Positions 3,903-64,000 of a stretch of DNA of 64,000 nucleotides are shown here, in pieces. Numbering within the stretch: the stretch's first letter is position 1; each line of letters opens with the position of its first letter. The position numbers and the translations under genes are program-made. Under the pieces are notes generated by a model that did not search any database, had not been told where the DNA came from, and saw only the letters and a list, made by a program, of their open reading frames with translations. The stretch comes from Escallonia rubra (taxonomy: Eukaryota > Streptophyta > Magnoliopsida > Escalloniales > Escalloniaceae). The stretch spans positions 248,001 to 312,000 of the forward strand of contig JAVXUO010000473.1 in NCBI GenBank assembly GCA_033065855.1, read 5' to 3'.

Positions 3903-5255
3903 ACGTGATTTGATCAAATATAATGTCTCGCGTTCTAACATTATGTTTTCCTTTTTATTCAAGTATCAATTGCCAATATGCGCATATCGTTTCTATATTT
4001 ATGTTGTTCTCTAAAAATAATAAGTTTTTGTAACTTTATATCTTTTGTCTTCTAGGTCTTATTCAAATATGTGGCTTCGTAACGAGTGTCTTCGCATCAG
4101 TACGCTTTTGGAAAATTTTGACAATACTACTTTCAAGTCAACTACACCAATAACTAAGTATTAACTTACAAAAATTGAGCTTTGCCATCAATTATGAAAT
4201 TGTGGGTACGAAATTTTAGAAAATTATTTGATTCAGAAGATTGTTCGAGATCTTCTATCTTCCTAAATTGAGCAAAAATAAAATTAGATTTGAGAATCGT
4301 AACTTGCATGTTACAAGAAAGTTAGTAAACTATTTGGAAAATAGAGGAAGAAAGCTTTATCCCTTATGGATTCAATTAGAAAAATAGAATATGGATCCAA
4401 ACACCAATGTGAGATCTCACATGCAGGCAAAAGAAAAAATTTACCACGATCTCAAGCGAAAGGATTTAGTCTAGACGTAGCAACTTTGGTTCGTGTGTGG
4501 CGACATTCCCGCCTACATGGCCTATTGAAAGCATTCATCGAAAGTTAAAAAAGAAGTTCATTGACATTGAGAGATTTGACTGTTATGTTGGAAAAAATTG
4601 AAAGGAATTTTGTTGAAGATGTGGACAAACTGAGCTAAAACCCTTTGACACATGATGATGGGTACAAATAAATAATTTCTTGGGCCAGGTAAGTTATACT
4701 ATTTTGTTTGGTGCAGTGTCATTCTAATAAGCACTAAAACGTGACAATGTGAAATATCTTATAGCGTTGGAGGCATCAAAGTGAATGTTACTCATAGGAA
4801 ACTTTGTCGACTATTTTGCATTCTAAATTTTCTTTCTAAAATTGTTCACTCGATGATCATTAAATTAGTTGAAGCACCGGTAAATGTAACTCAAATTTTC
4901 TTGTTTAATTATGTTGCAATTGTTGCAACTCGCATTTGCGATCACTTTTACTATTTTTACTATCGTTGCCAATCATCATATATGACGTTCCTTAATCAAC
5001 AATTCACTAATAGTTATAAAATGTTCATGTGTGCAACGTAAGGGTTCAAAACTAGTTTTAAATAACACGAAAAGAAAAATGAAATGTTAAGGATGTGAAA
5101 AACTCATTATTAGTGGAGATGGGCAATTTTGAAGGGGGTGGATGGTGGTCAGTGGCGGTTTAGCAGGGGTGCATGGAGGTAAAGATGATTAAGACTTAAA
5201 AAGATAGTTCTAACCTTGTCTTTTCCATCACTTACAACATGGACAATATTACGAG
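3903..5255. other. AT-rich interval without a supported gene
   Basis: Only short ORFs are present. The longest (4781-5041, 86 codons) shows no domain I recognise. The segment 4366-4560 looks weakly coding (LVRVWRHSRLHGLLKAFIES) and may be a decayed transposon fragment, but I cannot assign it. Confidence 0.4.
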
Positions 5256-6350
5256 CTCCCTGAGTTTAGGGATAAATTATAGCCAAAGACATGTTTTTAC
5301 ACAGTAGACACTCGTATCCAAATTGTGAAACAATTGTATCAAGTTCTCATATCGTTAAGGTTCCATGATCCTAACTAACGAGTTTGGTTGACGTGGCCAT
5401 TTTATATTTTCAAAATGCCAATACTACCCTTACAGGTACATATATGTCTTCCCCTCCCCCTTCAACCACCACCCCTTCTCTGTCTTCTTTCCCATTACTT
5501 TCCATGCTCTTCCCCTTTTCCCCCGGCTCTCTTTCTCTATAGCCTCCACAATCACATTCTTCTTTCCCACTGCTCCTTTCTTGCCTTTTCCCTCTCTCTT
5601 TCTTTCTCTCCCTCTCTTTCGCCGCCATAATTACACAAAAGCTGCCCTCAACTACCACCACTAACCACTGCCCTCATCCACCACCACCAACTACTACATT
5701 GAAGCCACCCATCTATTACATTGGAGCCACCCATCTACGTGTGTGAGTGTGTACTGTACTTTGCCGATTTGCTAGTCAATTTGCATTTTTGATTAAGTAC
5801 TGTGCAACTTGTGGATGGGTTTGTGAAGGATTGAAACCCAGATTTGCTATGGGTGAGTGGGTATTGTGCATATTTGTTGAGTGTGTGTAGATCTATGTGG
5901 GTGGGAATATATGCATGTGAGTGCACATAAATTGGTGGTGGTGGCAGTGTTTGTTATGGTTGGTGGTGTTGGGGTGGTGCCGTGGTTGGTGGTTGATGGT
6001 GTTGAGGTGGTGTCATGGTGGTGGTGTTGGAGTTGAAGTCATGCTATGGTGATGGTGTTAAATTAGTTGAAAGGAGCAAATCAAGAGAGAGTGGTGAGGT
6101 ATGGGTGGGCGAGCTAATGATGGTGGCGATGGTTGCATTGCTGGTTAACGGTTGGTGGCGGAGGCTGGTGTCCTTTGTTTGGAATTTTTAGCAGAGAAAA
6201 GTGACACTGAGAAGACAAGATGGTTGAGGGCAACCATGTGTTTTCACATTAAATTTGTAATGCCATCACCATTTCGCCTGGTCAAAAGACACAAGTGATA
6301 TTTTGACAGAACACAATCATCGACTGTAACTTACTCATAAACTCAAGGAG
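5256..6350. mobile_element. Mutator-like terminal-inverted-repeat element, copy A
   Basis: The left end CTCCCTGAGTTTAGGGATAA... (5256 onward) and the inverse of the right end CTCCTTGAGTTTATGAGTAA... (6350 backward) form an imperfect inverted repeat of about 35 bases. The outer 200 bases match 62802-62995 near the window's right edge, including a shared GTTAGGGTTCC...CCTAACTAACG segment and ATGCCAATACTACCCT. The interior is CT-rich, then GGTGGTG-rich, with no recognisable ORF. No clear 9-bp target duplication was found, so the superfamily is inferred from the long degenerate TIRs and the gene fragment carried by the sister copy. Confidence 0.6.
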
Positions 6351-7598
6351 TTAGTGCTATTATTTCATTACAATAGTAGGCAAAATTTGGATTTTGAGAG
6401 TTAATATGATTGCAACCATACTGTTTACGTAAAGATGGTATCATTTTGCTTTCTTATCGAATGCCGATCTTTCTAAACGAGACCCCCCAAACAGGGAAAG
6501 AGCCAAAGTCAAGACAAACTAAGGTGATAGAGAGAATTCCTATTAGTTACCGTCCCTGGGCTCATTCCCTTTGAGTTAACTGAGCTAAGAGCATGGGATA
6601 TTTTCACAAGAGTTGATTCAACCGACGTAGTACCCCATACCCGAAAAGAAAAAATTGACGGTAGTCTCTACGGAAGGAAATAAAAAAATCCTCTATTATT
6701 TGAAAATTGTCCTTTCTTTCTCAACGCAATTTGGCTCGCGCTTAAAGAAGGCAAAATGCTGTCAACAGGGGCAGTGCCAGGGGGAAAGAAGCAGGGAGCT
6801 AGTCTTCCTCTTCTTAGACCCTTGTTTGTACAGAAATATGAGTTTTTCTTTCCTACTCTCCGATATGAAAGAGACAAGGAAAGTCCAAACTTTCAGAATC
6901 TAATAAGAGAACTTGATCACCTTTATGAATCAGATGCAACACATAGCCATTAAAAGAATGAACTAATGACTCGATCAAATTGGAATCTCTTAACTGCATT
7001 CCTAGAAAACTAGTTTTGATCCCATGAGTTACATACGGGAACAACAACTATTAAAGTACTGATTGAAATATATCGTATTTGTATGCCACCAAGAAAATAG
7101 TAAAGATATATAACAAATGATTGAAAATAAAATGAGAGAGTATAAACTCGTAATGAAATAAAAGGAAGGAGACTATATTAGCTAGCAAAAAAAGCTAATA
7201 GAGAATATGAGACTTCTCTAAACATAATAGAAAAGATTTAAGATTAAAGGGAATATATAGAGAGTTAATTTTGACAAAATCCTAGGAATGAATGAAATTG
7301 CAAAGATATAAATAAAAATTTTAAATGGGACATGTTGACATAGAAGAGAGAGAAATATGAAATATTTAATTGGTTGAATTTCAAATCAAATTGAATGAGA
7401 GAGAGGGAGAGAGAAAAAAATGATTCCAAATTATTGTTACAAAGGTGAATAAATCTAAAATGCTTTTAAAAAGTTAAAACAGGAAAGTCCATATGACGAG
7501 CTAAAAGAGTGTCCATGTAGGTGGTGACGTGGCTAATTTATCTCAGTTTCGACTTTCATATAGATATAATTACATGTGAAGGTTTTAGCTATAATATT
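6351..7598. other. Interval without a supported gene; possible organelle-derived patch
   Basis: 6480-6960 has more even base composition and looks unlike its AT-rich surroundings. It contains a 65-codon ORF (6756-6953, ...PLLRPLFVQKYEFFFPTLRYER...) that I do not recognise. It could be a nuclear copy of organelle DNA, but I cannot align it. 7040-7560 is AT-rich and featureless. Confidence 0.3.
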
Positions 7599-54900: not shown

Positions 54901-56987
54901 AGTGCAGAATGCAATTTGTGGCTGGGAGGTCAACTTTTTATTTGGAGTTGAAGAAAGTCATCTTTGCTTCTTAAATAAAGTATGGATCTTGAGGTTGAGA
55001 AAAATCAGAGAAAAATGCCATGAGGGATAATCTTTGAAGCAGTTAAACATAAATTATTACGTTTTCATTGCATTAGGCAAGCTGGGATCTTAATAGCTCA
55101 TTCGTGCGAACCTCTCCACATTCATAGAGATCAGGTTGCAGATTGCACCTGCCTCATTATAATATCAAGAAACTTCAGGGTGGTCATTTTTTTTCTTTCT
55201 GGGGTTTTTATTCTGTGCGGTCAGGGTGGATCTAAAGGTGCTAATTGGTTCTTGTGCTGTTGTGATTTTATGCTATTAAAACTGAAGGAGAGGCAATGCA
55301 AAATGTGTTACAGCATTGTTCAGAAGTTGGATGATGAAAACAGAATCACAGGAACTGAGGGTTCATTATGAATTGTTCGAAATGCAGAACCACGGGGACT
55401 AAGGATTTTTACATTAAATGGTAGAGAAATTGGGAATCTCTATGAGGCTCATTGGGAACGTCGTATAATCAACTTTAGTCAAGTCTGATCTTGTGTGCGT
55501 ACTTTTAGGTTATGACACCAATGATGTCATAATCTGTGTAGTTGCAACATTTTTGAAAAGTCTGAGGGTTTTTCAGAAAAGTATTTAATATTGATAGACA
55601 TGGCTGATTTCATGGTTTTTCAGGCTCAGCTTCATTATACGAGTTATGTATGAACTCTATTGAGGTTTTGAGGCGCACTTGTGTAGATGCAATGGTACTT
55701 TTTAAGCCTCTCTTTTAGATCCTAAACATTATACTTTAGTAAACTCAACTCTCGTTGTCAATGAGGATTCAATTCTAGCCACCCAAAGCCACGATAATGA
55801 TTCTAGGTACTGCTATTCATAGAGTCGGTTTTTTAATCGTTATAATCGCCCATATACCCAAGCAAGCTCAGTGCATGCTTTATGGTCTAACCCCCCTCCT
55901 CGCCTTTTCTTCAAACATCACCCTGACACTTGGACTAAATGCTGTCGAATGTGTAGACTTCCATGCATCCTACATCTTCGAAGGCAAGAATTGCAACACA
56001 TTCTTAATCTCTAAACCCAACCAATATATTCACCTTTAGAAGCTGTAAGCTAAATGCTTCTACCCACGGCCCACCCTTAATCTCTAAACCCAACCAATAT
56101 ATTCACCTTTAGAAGCTGCAAGCTAAATGCTTCTACCCATGGCCCACCCGTATAATCAATTGTAGCTGCCATGACTATGTGCTTTATGCTAGTTTCTCAT
56201 ACCGGATGAGGACGAAGAGATTTAGGCTTGTAGCCATAGCATGGACCACAAAATTGAGACATGGCAAAGGGAAGAACCTAAAAAGTGGCAAAGGTCTAGG
56301 GCTCCAAGGAAGCTCTACTGAAAACACTACAAACAAAAGCAGGGTCACCCCCGATAAAAATGTATCAACATCTCATCGCATCTCCAAGACAAAACTCATC
56401 GATGTAATCTGCGTAGACTTCGGAGTGTGATTTTGATCATTACCCACATCCTTCAACAAGCTATTAGCATCTCTCTTTACTTTCTTTACACACTTTAAGG
56501 AATATCTTCTCATTGGACTGAGCTGCAACATGATGATGTTATCAGTTTTTTATGGGTAAATTCACTGTTGAAAGAATAGACAACATAAATTCGGGAAAAC
56601 AGTCTTTATAATATATAAAGAAACGTTCCCCCCCCAACCCCCCGTCCCTCCGCCGAATTCTCTTAATTTTGGGTTTGCGTTACATTAGTCTTACTAGAAT
56701 GCAAAATGACTGTTATGGTTGGTTGTCGCAATTTTGCAGCTTCTAGATGAGATGATAGACAATGGCTTCCCTCTCACAACAGAACCTAATATCCTGAGGG
56801 AGATGATAGCTCCTCCAAATATTGTTAGCAAAATGTTGAGTGTTGTAACTGGTAACAGTTCTAACATGAGCAACACCCTTCCAGTTGCGACAGCATCTTG
56901 TGTCCCATGGAGAACTACAGACGTGAAGCATGCAAATAATGAAGTTTATGTTGATCTTGTTGAAGAAATGGACGCTATCGTTAACAG
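51921..56987 (+). CDS. AP3M: AP-3 complex mu subunit, exons 1-5 (3' part not visible)
   Basis: Exons 51921-51955, 53157-53256, 53354-53464, 54603-54692 and 56740-56987 join in phase to 194 codons plus two bases. The protein reads MLQCIFLLSDSG|EVMLEKQL, then VDRKICAWFWEQSIAQGDSFK, LLPVIASPTHYLFQIVREGI, FLCRVADVLSDYLGGLNEDL, and EEMDAIVNR at the end. This is the longin-like N-terminal domain of AP-3 mu plus the linker. The family is about 415 residues, so the mu homology domain that reads cargo tyrosine signals is missing. The last donor seen is GC (AACAG|GCATGT), so intron 5 would be GC-AG. AP-3 sorts cargo from the trans-Golgi or endosomes to the vacuole. Either the 3' exons lie beyond 64000 behind an intron of over 7 kb, or the locus is truncated. 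Confidence 0.85.
52534..53193 (+). repeat. Tandem array of about 180 bp spanning the AP3M exon 2 border
   Basis: The word GGTAATGCTNGAG with its flanks recurs at 52622, 52797, 52979 and 53161 (spacing 175, 182, 182). A partial unit lies upstream from 52534. Each unit has a T-tract, ATCACAATGA, a copy of the first 36 or so bases of exon 2 (EVMLEKQLTGHWV), then TGTTTAATTGGGTGGGAAAATGG and TCTTTGCATCATGCACC. Only the last unit keeps a GACAG|TGAG acceptor and runs into the real exon. Confidence 0.9.
54387..54425. repeat. Poly-C and (CTC)n tract in AP3M intron 3
   Basis: About 20 C followed by seven CTC-type units and a short (TG)n/(TC)n run, next to the pyrimidine-rich part of intron 3. Confidence 0.8.
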
Positions 56988-60421: not shown

Positions 60422-62799
60422 ATAAGTTTCATGTATCTCTTATTTTAGGATTAAAGTATAAATCAAGTCTTTTTCAACTTTTTCTATCTTTAAGTTCCAA
60501 CGTTCGAGTACAATTTGTTTAAAATGACGCTTAATCTTAATTATACTTTCTTTTTTCTACTTTTCAATTAAAAAATCTATAGTGTAGTCCTTAGTTGCAG
60601 GAAACTCCTAATATAGTGACGTTTCTCTCTCGGAAACTCGCTTTTGCGATCCCAAGTTAGGAGCTCCATGGGATCTCGTCCCAAGCTAATATGGGAACTC
60701 GATCCCGTTAGCTGGATAGAGATGCATGGAACAAGTGAGAGAGTACTTGAAAATCAAGCCATTTTCAACTCAATTCCTTGTTTCTCTCTTCCTTCAAGTC
60801 CTTAAAACCTCCTTGTTTGTTGTTGCTGGCTATGTAAACAATACTAAACAAATGATAATACTCTTTACGCATTTATTTATTCAAGTCGCTCCCAACCTCA
60901 AATTCTTCTTGGTGCTTACGCTCCCCAGTTCCCATTCCCTCTCCCGCCCCCGCCCCTGCCCCCGCTTTGTGCAACTAAGGTGTAGTCTAAGTTTCTCTTG
61001 ATAGTGTACTCTAAAGCTCTCTTTTATATTTATCTAGCATGACATTGTTCATCGTAGTAGTAAAATAAGGCTATTAATTTAGTTGTAGATGTAATTTAAC
61101 ACATATTTTCCTTAAGATTTTTATTTTTAACATAGACTTTACTTACTCATCTAAAAAGTATATATACATGTGTCTGTGCGTGTCCTTTTGAAATCCATAC
61201 TACAAAATGTATGTGCGAAGTTGATATCAGATAGTAATAAAGAACTAAGTAATTTTAATATAGATACAAATTCAACAAAAATTCGTCAAGAATAATTTGT
61301 AACCCAGATCATTTATTAAATAAAAACCTGTATCATCAAAATAAAAAGAAAAAAAAACATATTACCTATGGCATAAGGTTTTGAGAGTTAAGAAAATTAT
61401 GGGGTTAATTACATCCATGACCTTGAGGTTAGGGTAAAATTACAAGTATGCCCATTAGTTGGAACAAATAACACTTATTCTGTTGACTGAACGAAAATAC
61501 TAAAAGGATATAAAGATCAAAATGCCCGTCACTTAGGAATGTAATTCTTCAAATGTCATTCTTCATCCCTTTATCTCATCCATACAGCCCCACCACCACC
61601 ATAATCCATTTAGACTTTTGAGCTCCAACACACACAAAGACAACATATACATGCATCCACACACACATAGACGATATGCACACATACCCACACATACACG
61701 CCCCTCCCCCCCCCCCTCCCCCAAAACCGGCCACCACCAGAATTACATCCCACCATCATTGTGTTCTTTAGCCTTTTCACTTTTCTTCGGCCTTCTCACC
61801 CCAATCAACTTTAAATTTGTAGTTATATGCAATAGTTAATAGAGGCAATAGCTGGTCACCCTAATTTATAGGAAAAAAAACATGATAATACCTGGACTTA
61901 GGAACGGTTCTCTAAGAAGTAGGGACATTTAAGGTGCTCATTTTATCGATTTTGATGTTGATAATTTTTAAGGTTATGTTTTGATAAGGTTTTCTTTAAA
62001 GGTGGACAGAGACTTAGTATCATATTTATACGATTGGGCTAGATTGACTTCCACAATTTTGTCACTTAAAAATACATTAGTGAACTTTTAACCTCTTTCA
62101 GCCGCAAATTGTTTATGATTAACCAAAAATATTGTAGTTTAGTCTCACCTTCTTAAAAGTAAAAATACATTTAAGTTTAGTAAACCTTTTATTTCTAAAA
62201 GGGTATTTTTAATGAAAAAATCTGTAGCCATTTTAATCGCTTGAGATTATTTTGTACGCTGGGGCGAGATCCTTACCCGTTTTGATTATATTAATAGTCT
62301 TATGTCACTAAAAGATGCATTAATGAACCTCTGTAGTGTCAAAATGTTTAAAGTTAGCCAAAACAGTAGTAATTTAGCCTCACCTTTTAAAAATTTAGAG
62401 AACTTTTTAACTTAAAAAGAATATTTCCAGGAAAAAGAATATTTAGTTGTTTAAGCCCTTGCATATAACAACTTGAGAGTTTTCAAGTTAAAAAAAGTTA
62501 TTAATCATTTGAGCCGGAATAAATTGGAATCTTTATTAATTGGGGTTCATCTAATCCTATCACTTTATAAGAGTGAAATATGTAAAGACAATAGCCATAT
62601 GAAACATGTTATCATGTAAATATATGATACCTCGGGATACGATGCATCATATAAAAATAATAACCATATGAAGAATATGTTGTCATGAAATAGGGTATTC
62701 CAATAACTCTAATACAAATATAGGATTATGTACTTGTCACGAACTCAAATTATAATTAGGAACAAAATTGTATGATAAAATCAAGGGATAATATCAATT
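60422..62799. other. AT-rich region without a supported gene
   Basis: 61395-61540 (TTAGGGTAAAATTACAAGTATGCCCATTAG...) resembles the outer part of the Mutator-like elements and may be another relic. A poly-C/CA-rich stretch lies at 61640-61725. The rest is AT-rich with no coding signal. Confidence 0.45.
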
Positions 62800-64000
62800 A
62801 TATCCTTCAGTTTAGGGGTAAATTACAGTCAAAGACGTAAGTTTCAAAATTTTGTACTCGTATCCAAAATGTGAAAATTTGGTATTAGATATGCCCACCG
62901 TTAGGGTTCCGTGACCCTAACTAACGGTTTCTGCTAATGTGGCAATACCGTATTTTAAAAATGGCAATACTACCCTCTCCTTCTTCCAATTTCCTGTACA
63001 TCCTCTCGCACAACCACTGCACCACCCCCGCATCACAACCACTGCAGAACCCAGTCAATCTGTCCCAAGAATCCCACCCCAACATCATAGCTGCACACAG
63101 ATTCACAAACACACGCACACAGCCTCCGCCTCGTCGTTATCACCATACCACCGCAAGCAATATGTCTTCACCACCCCACTGCTCCACCGTACTCAAAGTA
63201 GCCCCATCACACTTCAACTCATCACCAATTTTCACCAACAACTATCCCAATCAAACAAATTCAGGAAGAACTTCAAATCGGCAGCCCTACTGGCGGTGCC
63301 GAACCTCACAACGGGATCAGGGCCTTGGTCATGCCGTCTTTAAGGAGGATAGCCTTGCATCCGCTGTTGGTGCTGGCCACCAAACACCCATCGGTCGTGG
63401 CCATGGGGACAGAATATTCCCTGTCGTCTAGGAAGAGCGGCACGACGATGCCCATGGGGATCTAGACGTAACCAACGGGCATCTCACAGCACTGCCCCAA
63501 ATAGAATCGTAATTGAAGCCCAACCAAAGGCAGCCCATCGAGGGACTTGCCAGTGATCCTCTGCAAGGCCTCCGTCCTGATGGCGTCGGCACGGTAGTAG
63601 TCGCCGAGCTTAGATTCAAGGGAGTAGAAGAGAGTGATGGCAGCGATGATGGCCTTGACAACCTCCTCGTCTTCCTCGAAGGGGAGAGGGGCCGATGCGA
63701 CCACGGGTCAACGACCTTCTTGTGTTTGGGAAAAGGGGCGGCGACACAAGGAGCCAAGCGGGTGACCTCCTTGCGCGCATATGAGGTCATTGACGTCTTC
63801 CTCGTCGTCCACGGCAGATTTGGTGGTCATGGTTATTCGATGTGGAAATGGGTTTGAGACGGTGGTAGAAGGTGAATGACAATGGTGGTTCAATCGATTT
63901 GAGAAGGGATAGAAAAAGAGAAGGGGAAGAGAGAGACGAGTGATTTGTTGTAGAGGGCAATTATGTCATTTTACACGAAAATTTAACATCATCCGTATTC
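62800..64000. mobile_element. Mutator-like element, copy B, carrying an HMGR fragment (cut by window end)
   Basis: The left part (CCTTCAGTTTAGGGGTAAATTACAGTCAAAG...) matches copy A (5256-5460), and the right side (GTAGAGGGCAATTATGTCATTTTACACG) matches 6230-6270. The opposite inverted repeat is expected just past 64000. Between them lies a host-gene fragment encoding part of HMG-CoA reductase, the Pack-MULE arrangement. Confidence 0.7.
63236..63710 (-). pseudogene. HMG-CoA reductase fragment captured by a transposon
   Basis: Reading the minus strand: [14 protein letters not shown], then [35 protein letters not shown], a one-base frameshift, [12 protein letters not shown], a TAG, then [34 protein letters not shown] and, after another frame change, [17 protein letters not shown]. 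These are successive landmarks of plant HMGR from the linker into the start of the catalytic domain ([27 protein letters not shown]). The remaining catalytic residues and membrane segments are absent, and at least two frameshifts and one stop are visible. The fragment cannot make mevalonate. It reads without an intron, consistent with lying in HMGR exon 1. Confidence 0.85.

Follow-up and report, generated by a model that had tools for sequence, protein, structure and literature searches.

Comparison with Known Gene-Capturing Elements

The capture of gene fragments by mobile elements is a known kind of event in plants. According to the portions of previous reports drawn on here, Pack-MULEs include multicopy cases and take up GC-rich sequences selectively, and Mutator-like elements (MULEs) are associated with 24-nt small RNAs (PMC8277862, PMC4858842, PMC3310237). 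Like the Pack-MULEs of rice and tomato, as far as those portions describe them, the element reported here has Mutator-type ends, a 9-bp duplication, a GC-rich host fragment, and no transposase, and its parent gene lies elsewhere. Compared with tomato, more copies are present here; the excerpt on tomato gives 29 copies (one tandem-TIR type) and 1–14 copies (non-autonomous elements with single SLMULE46 ends) (PMC3310237). Animal Pack-TIR elements (gap filling, FoSTeST) also hold their cargo between terminal inverted repeats (TIRs), with template switching proposed and multicopy cases recorded (PMC8277862); unlike these, the present family is made up of plant MULEs and has a relative with a MuDR-like transposase. 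A literature search combining HMG-CoA reductase (HMGR) with Pack-MULEs or MULEs, in a coverage that left out most subscription journals, returned no title on HMGR cargo. The present case is a further instance of gene-fragment capture, while its less usual aspects are the copy number, the two apparent captures from one gene by elements with different ends, and an antisense intronic copy.

The Window Element and Its HMGR Fragment

The DNA analyzed (the window) is a stretch of 64,000 nucleotides from Escallonia rubra, located in contig C1786 (569,735 bases), and the search space was the 566-Mb genome. The initial annotation had proposed a Pack-MULE-like element near the right edge and predicted a right inverted repeat and a 9-bp duplication beyond position 64000. 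Both were found when sequence beyond the edge was fetched: the window copy is a whole element of 1,309 bp at 62785–64093 (extended coordinates), with ends defined by a 20-locus alignment, and its left 1,216 bp (62785..64000) lie in the window, with the remaining 93 bp beyond it. The element starts with GGGATAATATCA, ends with TGATATTATCCC, and is flanked by a perfect 9-bp target-site duplication in direct repeat, TAAAATCAA, at 62776..62784 on the left and in the nine bases following 64093, outside the window, on the right. The left TIR is imperfect and about 52 bp long (62785..62836, plus strand, placed by end alignment of the consensus of the window's subfamily, A1), and the inverted ends of the window locus (L009) match each other at 90.6% over 53 bp. 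A 548-bp tandem duplication (95.6%) with a third copy of ~77% adjoins the right side of the element (L009 2595–4207, extended 64094–65706).

Between the ends, a filler at 62977..63261 leads from the left element end, where similarity to a related 5.8-kb element ceases at about consensus 192, to the captured and degraded HMGR exon-1 fragment (63262..63809, minus strand), and a second filler (63810..63953) connects the fragment with the right end. At 63821, the window copy lacks 65 bp that are present in 20 of the 24 aligned A1 loci and absent from the other four, itself included; this absence is a derived deletion, because the sister subfamily A2 has those bases. No transposase-like frame was found in the three minus-strand frames of the 1.3-kb A1 consensus.

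The fragment aligns with an HMGR gene on contig C2782 (L029 1282–1848) at 83.5% over 577 columns with six gap openings (E printed as 0.0), while the same gene locus gave no match at E 1e-3 or better to window positions 1–62700. A 51-residue translated piece of the fragment matched Pfam PF00368 (E 5.7e-15), and an 81-residue piece, for which the Pfam search returned no match, matched the solved HMGR chains 8ecg and 7uli at ~1e-23 in a PDB search. The cargo of family A (A1 and A2) comes from exon 1 of the gene only. These matches bear out the earlier identification of a host HMGR fragment; the frameshifts and stop read at that time were likewise recovered, as frame breaks, a 27-bp deletion, and an in-frame TAG. 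Of the limits first given, 63236–63710, the right one falls ~100 bp short.

The ends had also been described as shared with an element at 5256–6350. This is true, but the similarity to the A1 consensus is distant (left end, 73.6% over 174 bp; right end, 69.2% over 143 bp). The element is a distant relative rather than another copy. It occupies 5241..6363, with limits and a 7-of-9 target duplication read by eye, and contains no HMGR sequence. Beside this older relative, positions 6440–7000 give the impression of organelle-like DNA.

Copies in the Genome and Their Parent Gene

A DNA search of the genome with a 1,001-base query identified at least 40 places among 165 candidates, the window included, with main pieces 93–100% identical. 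A Pfam scan for HMGR scored all of its 82 candidates and yielded 70 matches, which were split into 9 in three gene loci, 42 in A1, 14 in A2, and 5 in a different element, B, making 61 element-borne matches. Forty of the 42 A1 matches were also obtained in the DNA search and two were assigned by match range alone; 4 of the 14 A2 matches were fetched and checked and 10 were assigned by match range alone, so that 12 of the 56 assignments to A1 and A2 are by range.

Perfect 9-bp duplications were detected by script in 15 of 20 A1 loci, and one more (L013) by eye; L020 has two mismatches, L021 has three, and L019 and L024 have common flanks and no duplication. A further five A1 loci all carry perfect duplications, one of them (L051) being the same place as L028. 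Identical duplications were also found in L053 and L028 and in L055 and L047. After dropping L051, L024, L053, and L055, 21 A1 insertions were treated as independent. The pairs L019/L024, L028/L053, and L047/L055, each on different contigs with flanks or duplication in common, are read as uncollapsed haplotypes or segmental duplications in the assembly. In A2, three of four loci have a perfect 9-bp duplication.

The C2782 gene (L029, C2782:207142–208380) is complete-looking, with a predicted product of 604 aa and one GT-AG intron, within which the stops in its Pfam match appear, by reading of the sequence, to fall. It gives a single match, while the other two HMGR loci, C2176 and C2886, match in four pieces each, the first C2176 piece containing one TGA. 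The C2782 gene may have lost introns.

Copies differ from their own consensus by 0.7–3.9% in A1 (24 rows) and 1.2–2.5% in A2 (4 rows). In both subfamilies the fragment stops at one inner limit (parent 1848) and carries the same TAG, and the element ends are similar; a tree of 31 rows places the two subfamilies on a common branch, separate from the parent, with support of 98/94. For these reasons, the family-A fragment was most likely captured once, ahead of the A1/A2 split. The A1 and A2 consensus sequences diverge by 15.7% in the HMGR part and by 3.3–11.5% in the other six segments. Selection or separate captures as the cause of this difference were set aside in view of the shared limit, the TAG, the tree, and the equal rate of CG deamination within and outside the HMGR part (p 0.54); the extra divergence points to the higher GC content of that part.

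In the tree, the branch to the parent measures 0.01 and the stem common to the elements 0.029, followed by 0.056 for A1 and 0.11 for A2. Common neutral rates in plants are ~0.7–1.5% per million years, which would roughly place the capture several million years ago and the A1 burst one or two million years ago. Polarized by the parent, and with seven sites omitted at which all three sequences differ, changes at codon positions 1/2/3 number 7/14/6 on the A1 branch and 16/12/22 on the A2 branch (together 23/26/28, p 0.78), and this even distribution shows no codon constraint on the fragment along the two branches. The 16 changes common to A1 and A2 relative to the parent are distributed 4/2/10 (p 0.04), a lean that could stem from constraint, either early on or on the parent, or from a source gene that was a diverged relative of C2782.

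Among the 21 A1 insertions, C-to-T/G-to-A differences amount to 3.9% at CG (105/2,711), 3.6% at CHG (79/2,170), and 1.2% at CHH sites (107/9,205), with odds ratios of 3.4 and 3.2 for CG and CHG. Such an excess is the trace expected of methylated cytosines, and the elements were therefore probably methylated. On these sequence patterns, the HMGR fragment looks like a silenced passenger.

An Apparent Second Capture from the Same Gene

Element B is present in five copies (L030–L034) of 1,421–1,443 bp with inverted ends of ~194 bp. By eye, its ends have the outermost 12 bp alone in common with those of family A, and neither A1 nor A2 matched L030 at 1e-5. The cargo of B consists of 490 bp of C2782 exon 2, 98.4–99.0% identical, together with an inverted 58-bp piece that takes in the end of exon 1 and part of the intron of the same gene; since this piece crosses the exon-intron junction, the capture probably drew on genomic DNA. 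Perfect 9-base duplications flank four of the five copies and L030 has one mismatch; that of L033 is uninformative, because it sits in an AT repeat. The copies lie 0.4–1.6% from their consensus. The same HMGR gene was thus apparently captured twice, by MULEs with different ends, and the second capture appears to be recent.

The inverted piece of B starts at parent position 1846, at most 3 bp from the family-A limit at 1848 (L029 1846–1848), and the closeness of these inner limits may be chance. The flank to the right of B in L030 contains a long open frame from ~2668, which we take to resemble a hAT-type transposase.

Candidate Driver and Sibling Elements

Genome-wide, the end pattern GGGATAATATCANTTATATCCNT has 168 forward and 171 reverse occurrences, against 0 and 0 for a reversed control. 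At least three inverted pairs of it are 5.7–5.8 kb apart. One such pair, L063, spans 5,801 bp, has TATATAATA duplicated on both sides, and contains a frame of 797 aa with matches to PF10551 (MULE transposase, 3.5e-19), PF03108 (MuDR DNA-binding, 1.7e-16), and SWIM (2e-7). Its ends match those of A1 at 83% over 193 bp and 85% over 140 bp, and those of A2 at 79% and 91%. L063 is accordingly placed here as a candidate autonomous driver of the HMGR-bearing family, and a closer driver may exist, because its ends are just 79–91% similar to those of A1 and A2.

Three shorter pairs (L064, L065, and L066; 1.2–1.35 kb) have the same ends and no HMGR fragment. L066 carries at 700–1100 a stop-containing fragment resembling a CAF1/POP2 deadenylase, which matched PDB chain 2p51 in two pieces (E 9.2e-10 and 8e-4) and gave no match in the Pfam search. 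L064 contains a GC-rich coding-like stretch; a presumed resemblance to a trihelix factor was dropped when Pfam and PDB searches lent it no support. In L065, no cargo was recognized. Given the different cargos, the family seems to pick up diverse host sequences.

Origin of the Fragment and Possible Effects on HMGR

Mutator-type TIRs, duplications of ~9 bp at many distinct sites, a host gene fragment, a complete-looking parent outside the elements, two subfamilies with one capture limit, and a relative that contains a MuDR/MULE transposase frame are all present in this genome, and they uphold the Pack-MULE reading of the initial annotation. Very probably, a Pack-MULE took part of a host HMGR gene and then spread to many sites with the help of a transposase acting in trans. 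A non-autonomous Mutator-like element would have acquired the GC-rich 5' part of the C2782 gene, or alternatively of a close relative since lost or unassembled, perhaps through template switching during gap repair; it would then have multiplied at many sites with transposase supplied by L063 or a close relative, and the copies, presumably methylated, would carry the fragment as a passenger without a coding role.

An ordinary HMGR pseudogene or retrocopy that lies by chance near transposon ends would also be degraded and lack an intron, as is expected of any sequence from within exon 1. However, many sites carry this fragment within the same ends and differ in their duplications, and the inverted piece in B suggests a genomic DNA source, which makes this origin extremely improbable; for the window copy, a pseudogene or processed retrocopy is ruled out by the TIRs and 9-bp duplications at its boundaries. 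It is also very unlikely that the fragment encodes, or formerly encoded, a selected peptide. The third-position lean of the changes common to A1 and A2 (4/2/10, p 0.04) would fit such a role, as would open frames of up to 190 aa in family-A copies, one A1 match (C681) without an internal stop, and a 200-residue frame kept in all five B copies, but the frame of the A1 consensus is broken and contains a stop, 41 of the 42 A1 matches have an internal stop, changes along the A1 and A2 branches show no preference for a codon position, and B, at 0.4–1.6% from its consensus, is too young for an open frame to say much.

The window element lies inside a 9,241-bp GC-AG intron (56988–66228, extended) of the gene for the AP-3 complex mu subunit (AP3M). 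The exon on its left (56740..56987, plus strand) was found by tblastn with an AP3M protein, its start being set by eye, and scored 24.9 bits against PF00928, below the cut-off of 31.6, while the next exon scored 94.4. The tandem duplication beside the element falls in the same intron. Because the gene is on the plus strand and the HMGR fragment on the minus strand, AP3M pre-mRNA would contain HMGR antisense sequence. The HMGR-bearing elements could then act in trans on their parent, with antisense RNA, e.g., AP3M pre-mRNA, feeding small RNAs that tune HMGR. Exact 21-mers in common with the parent locus would permit this: all 28 family-A copies compared have 15–59 (the window copy 34), with longest runs of 29–40 nt, and all five B copies have 331–382 direct and 29–35 inverted ones, with longest runs of 124–254 nt. 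The antisense position within the AP3M intron and the CG/CHG deamination excess, consistent with methylation of the elements, are in line with it as well. Against it, the 16 sites at which A1 and A2 agree against the parent include none of the type expected from a change of C or G to T or A in the parent; together with the short parent branch (0.01), this leaves no mutational trace of methylation in the parent. Moreover, intron RNA is normally degraded. The 21-mer matches and the antisense position thus amount to conditions for trans-acting small RNAs, not evidence of their existence, and we regard such an action as improbable.

Unless the 61 matches carried by elements are set aside, the number of HMGR genes in this genome could be overestimated. 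In its broadest form, the history would be that two MULE families with different ends captured one HMGR gene on at least two occasions, one old and one recent, that both families amplified, that one copy came to lie antisense in AP3M, and that the pool of 61 matches supplies RNA acting in trans against a sterol-pathway gene, to the benefit of the elements or the host; taken as a whole, this is a little less probable even than the trans action by itself. The case brings together cargo and parent, two subfamilies, a candidate driver, and an apparent further capture of that gene, which allows the capture, amplification, and silencing of a host gene fragment to be ordered in time within a single genome.
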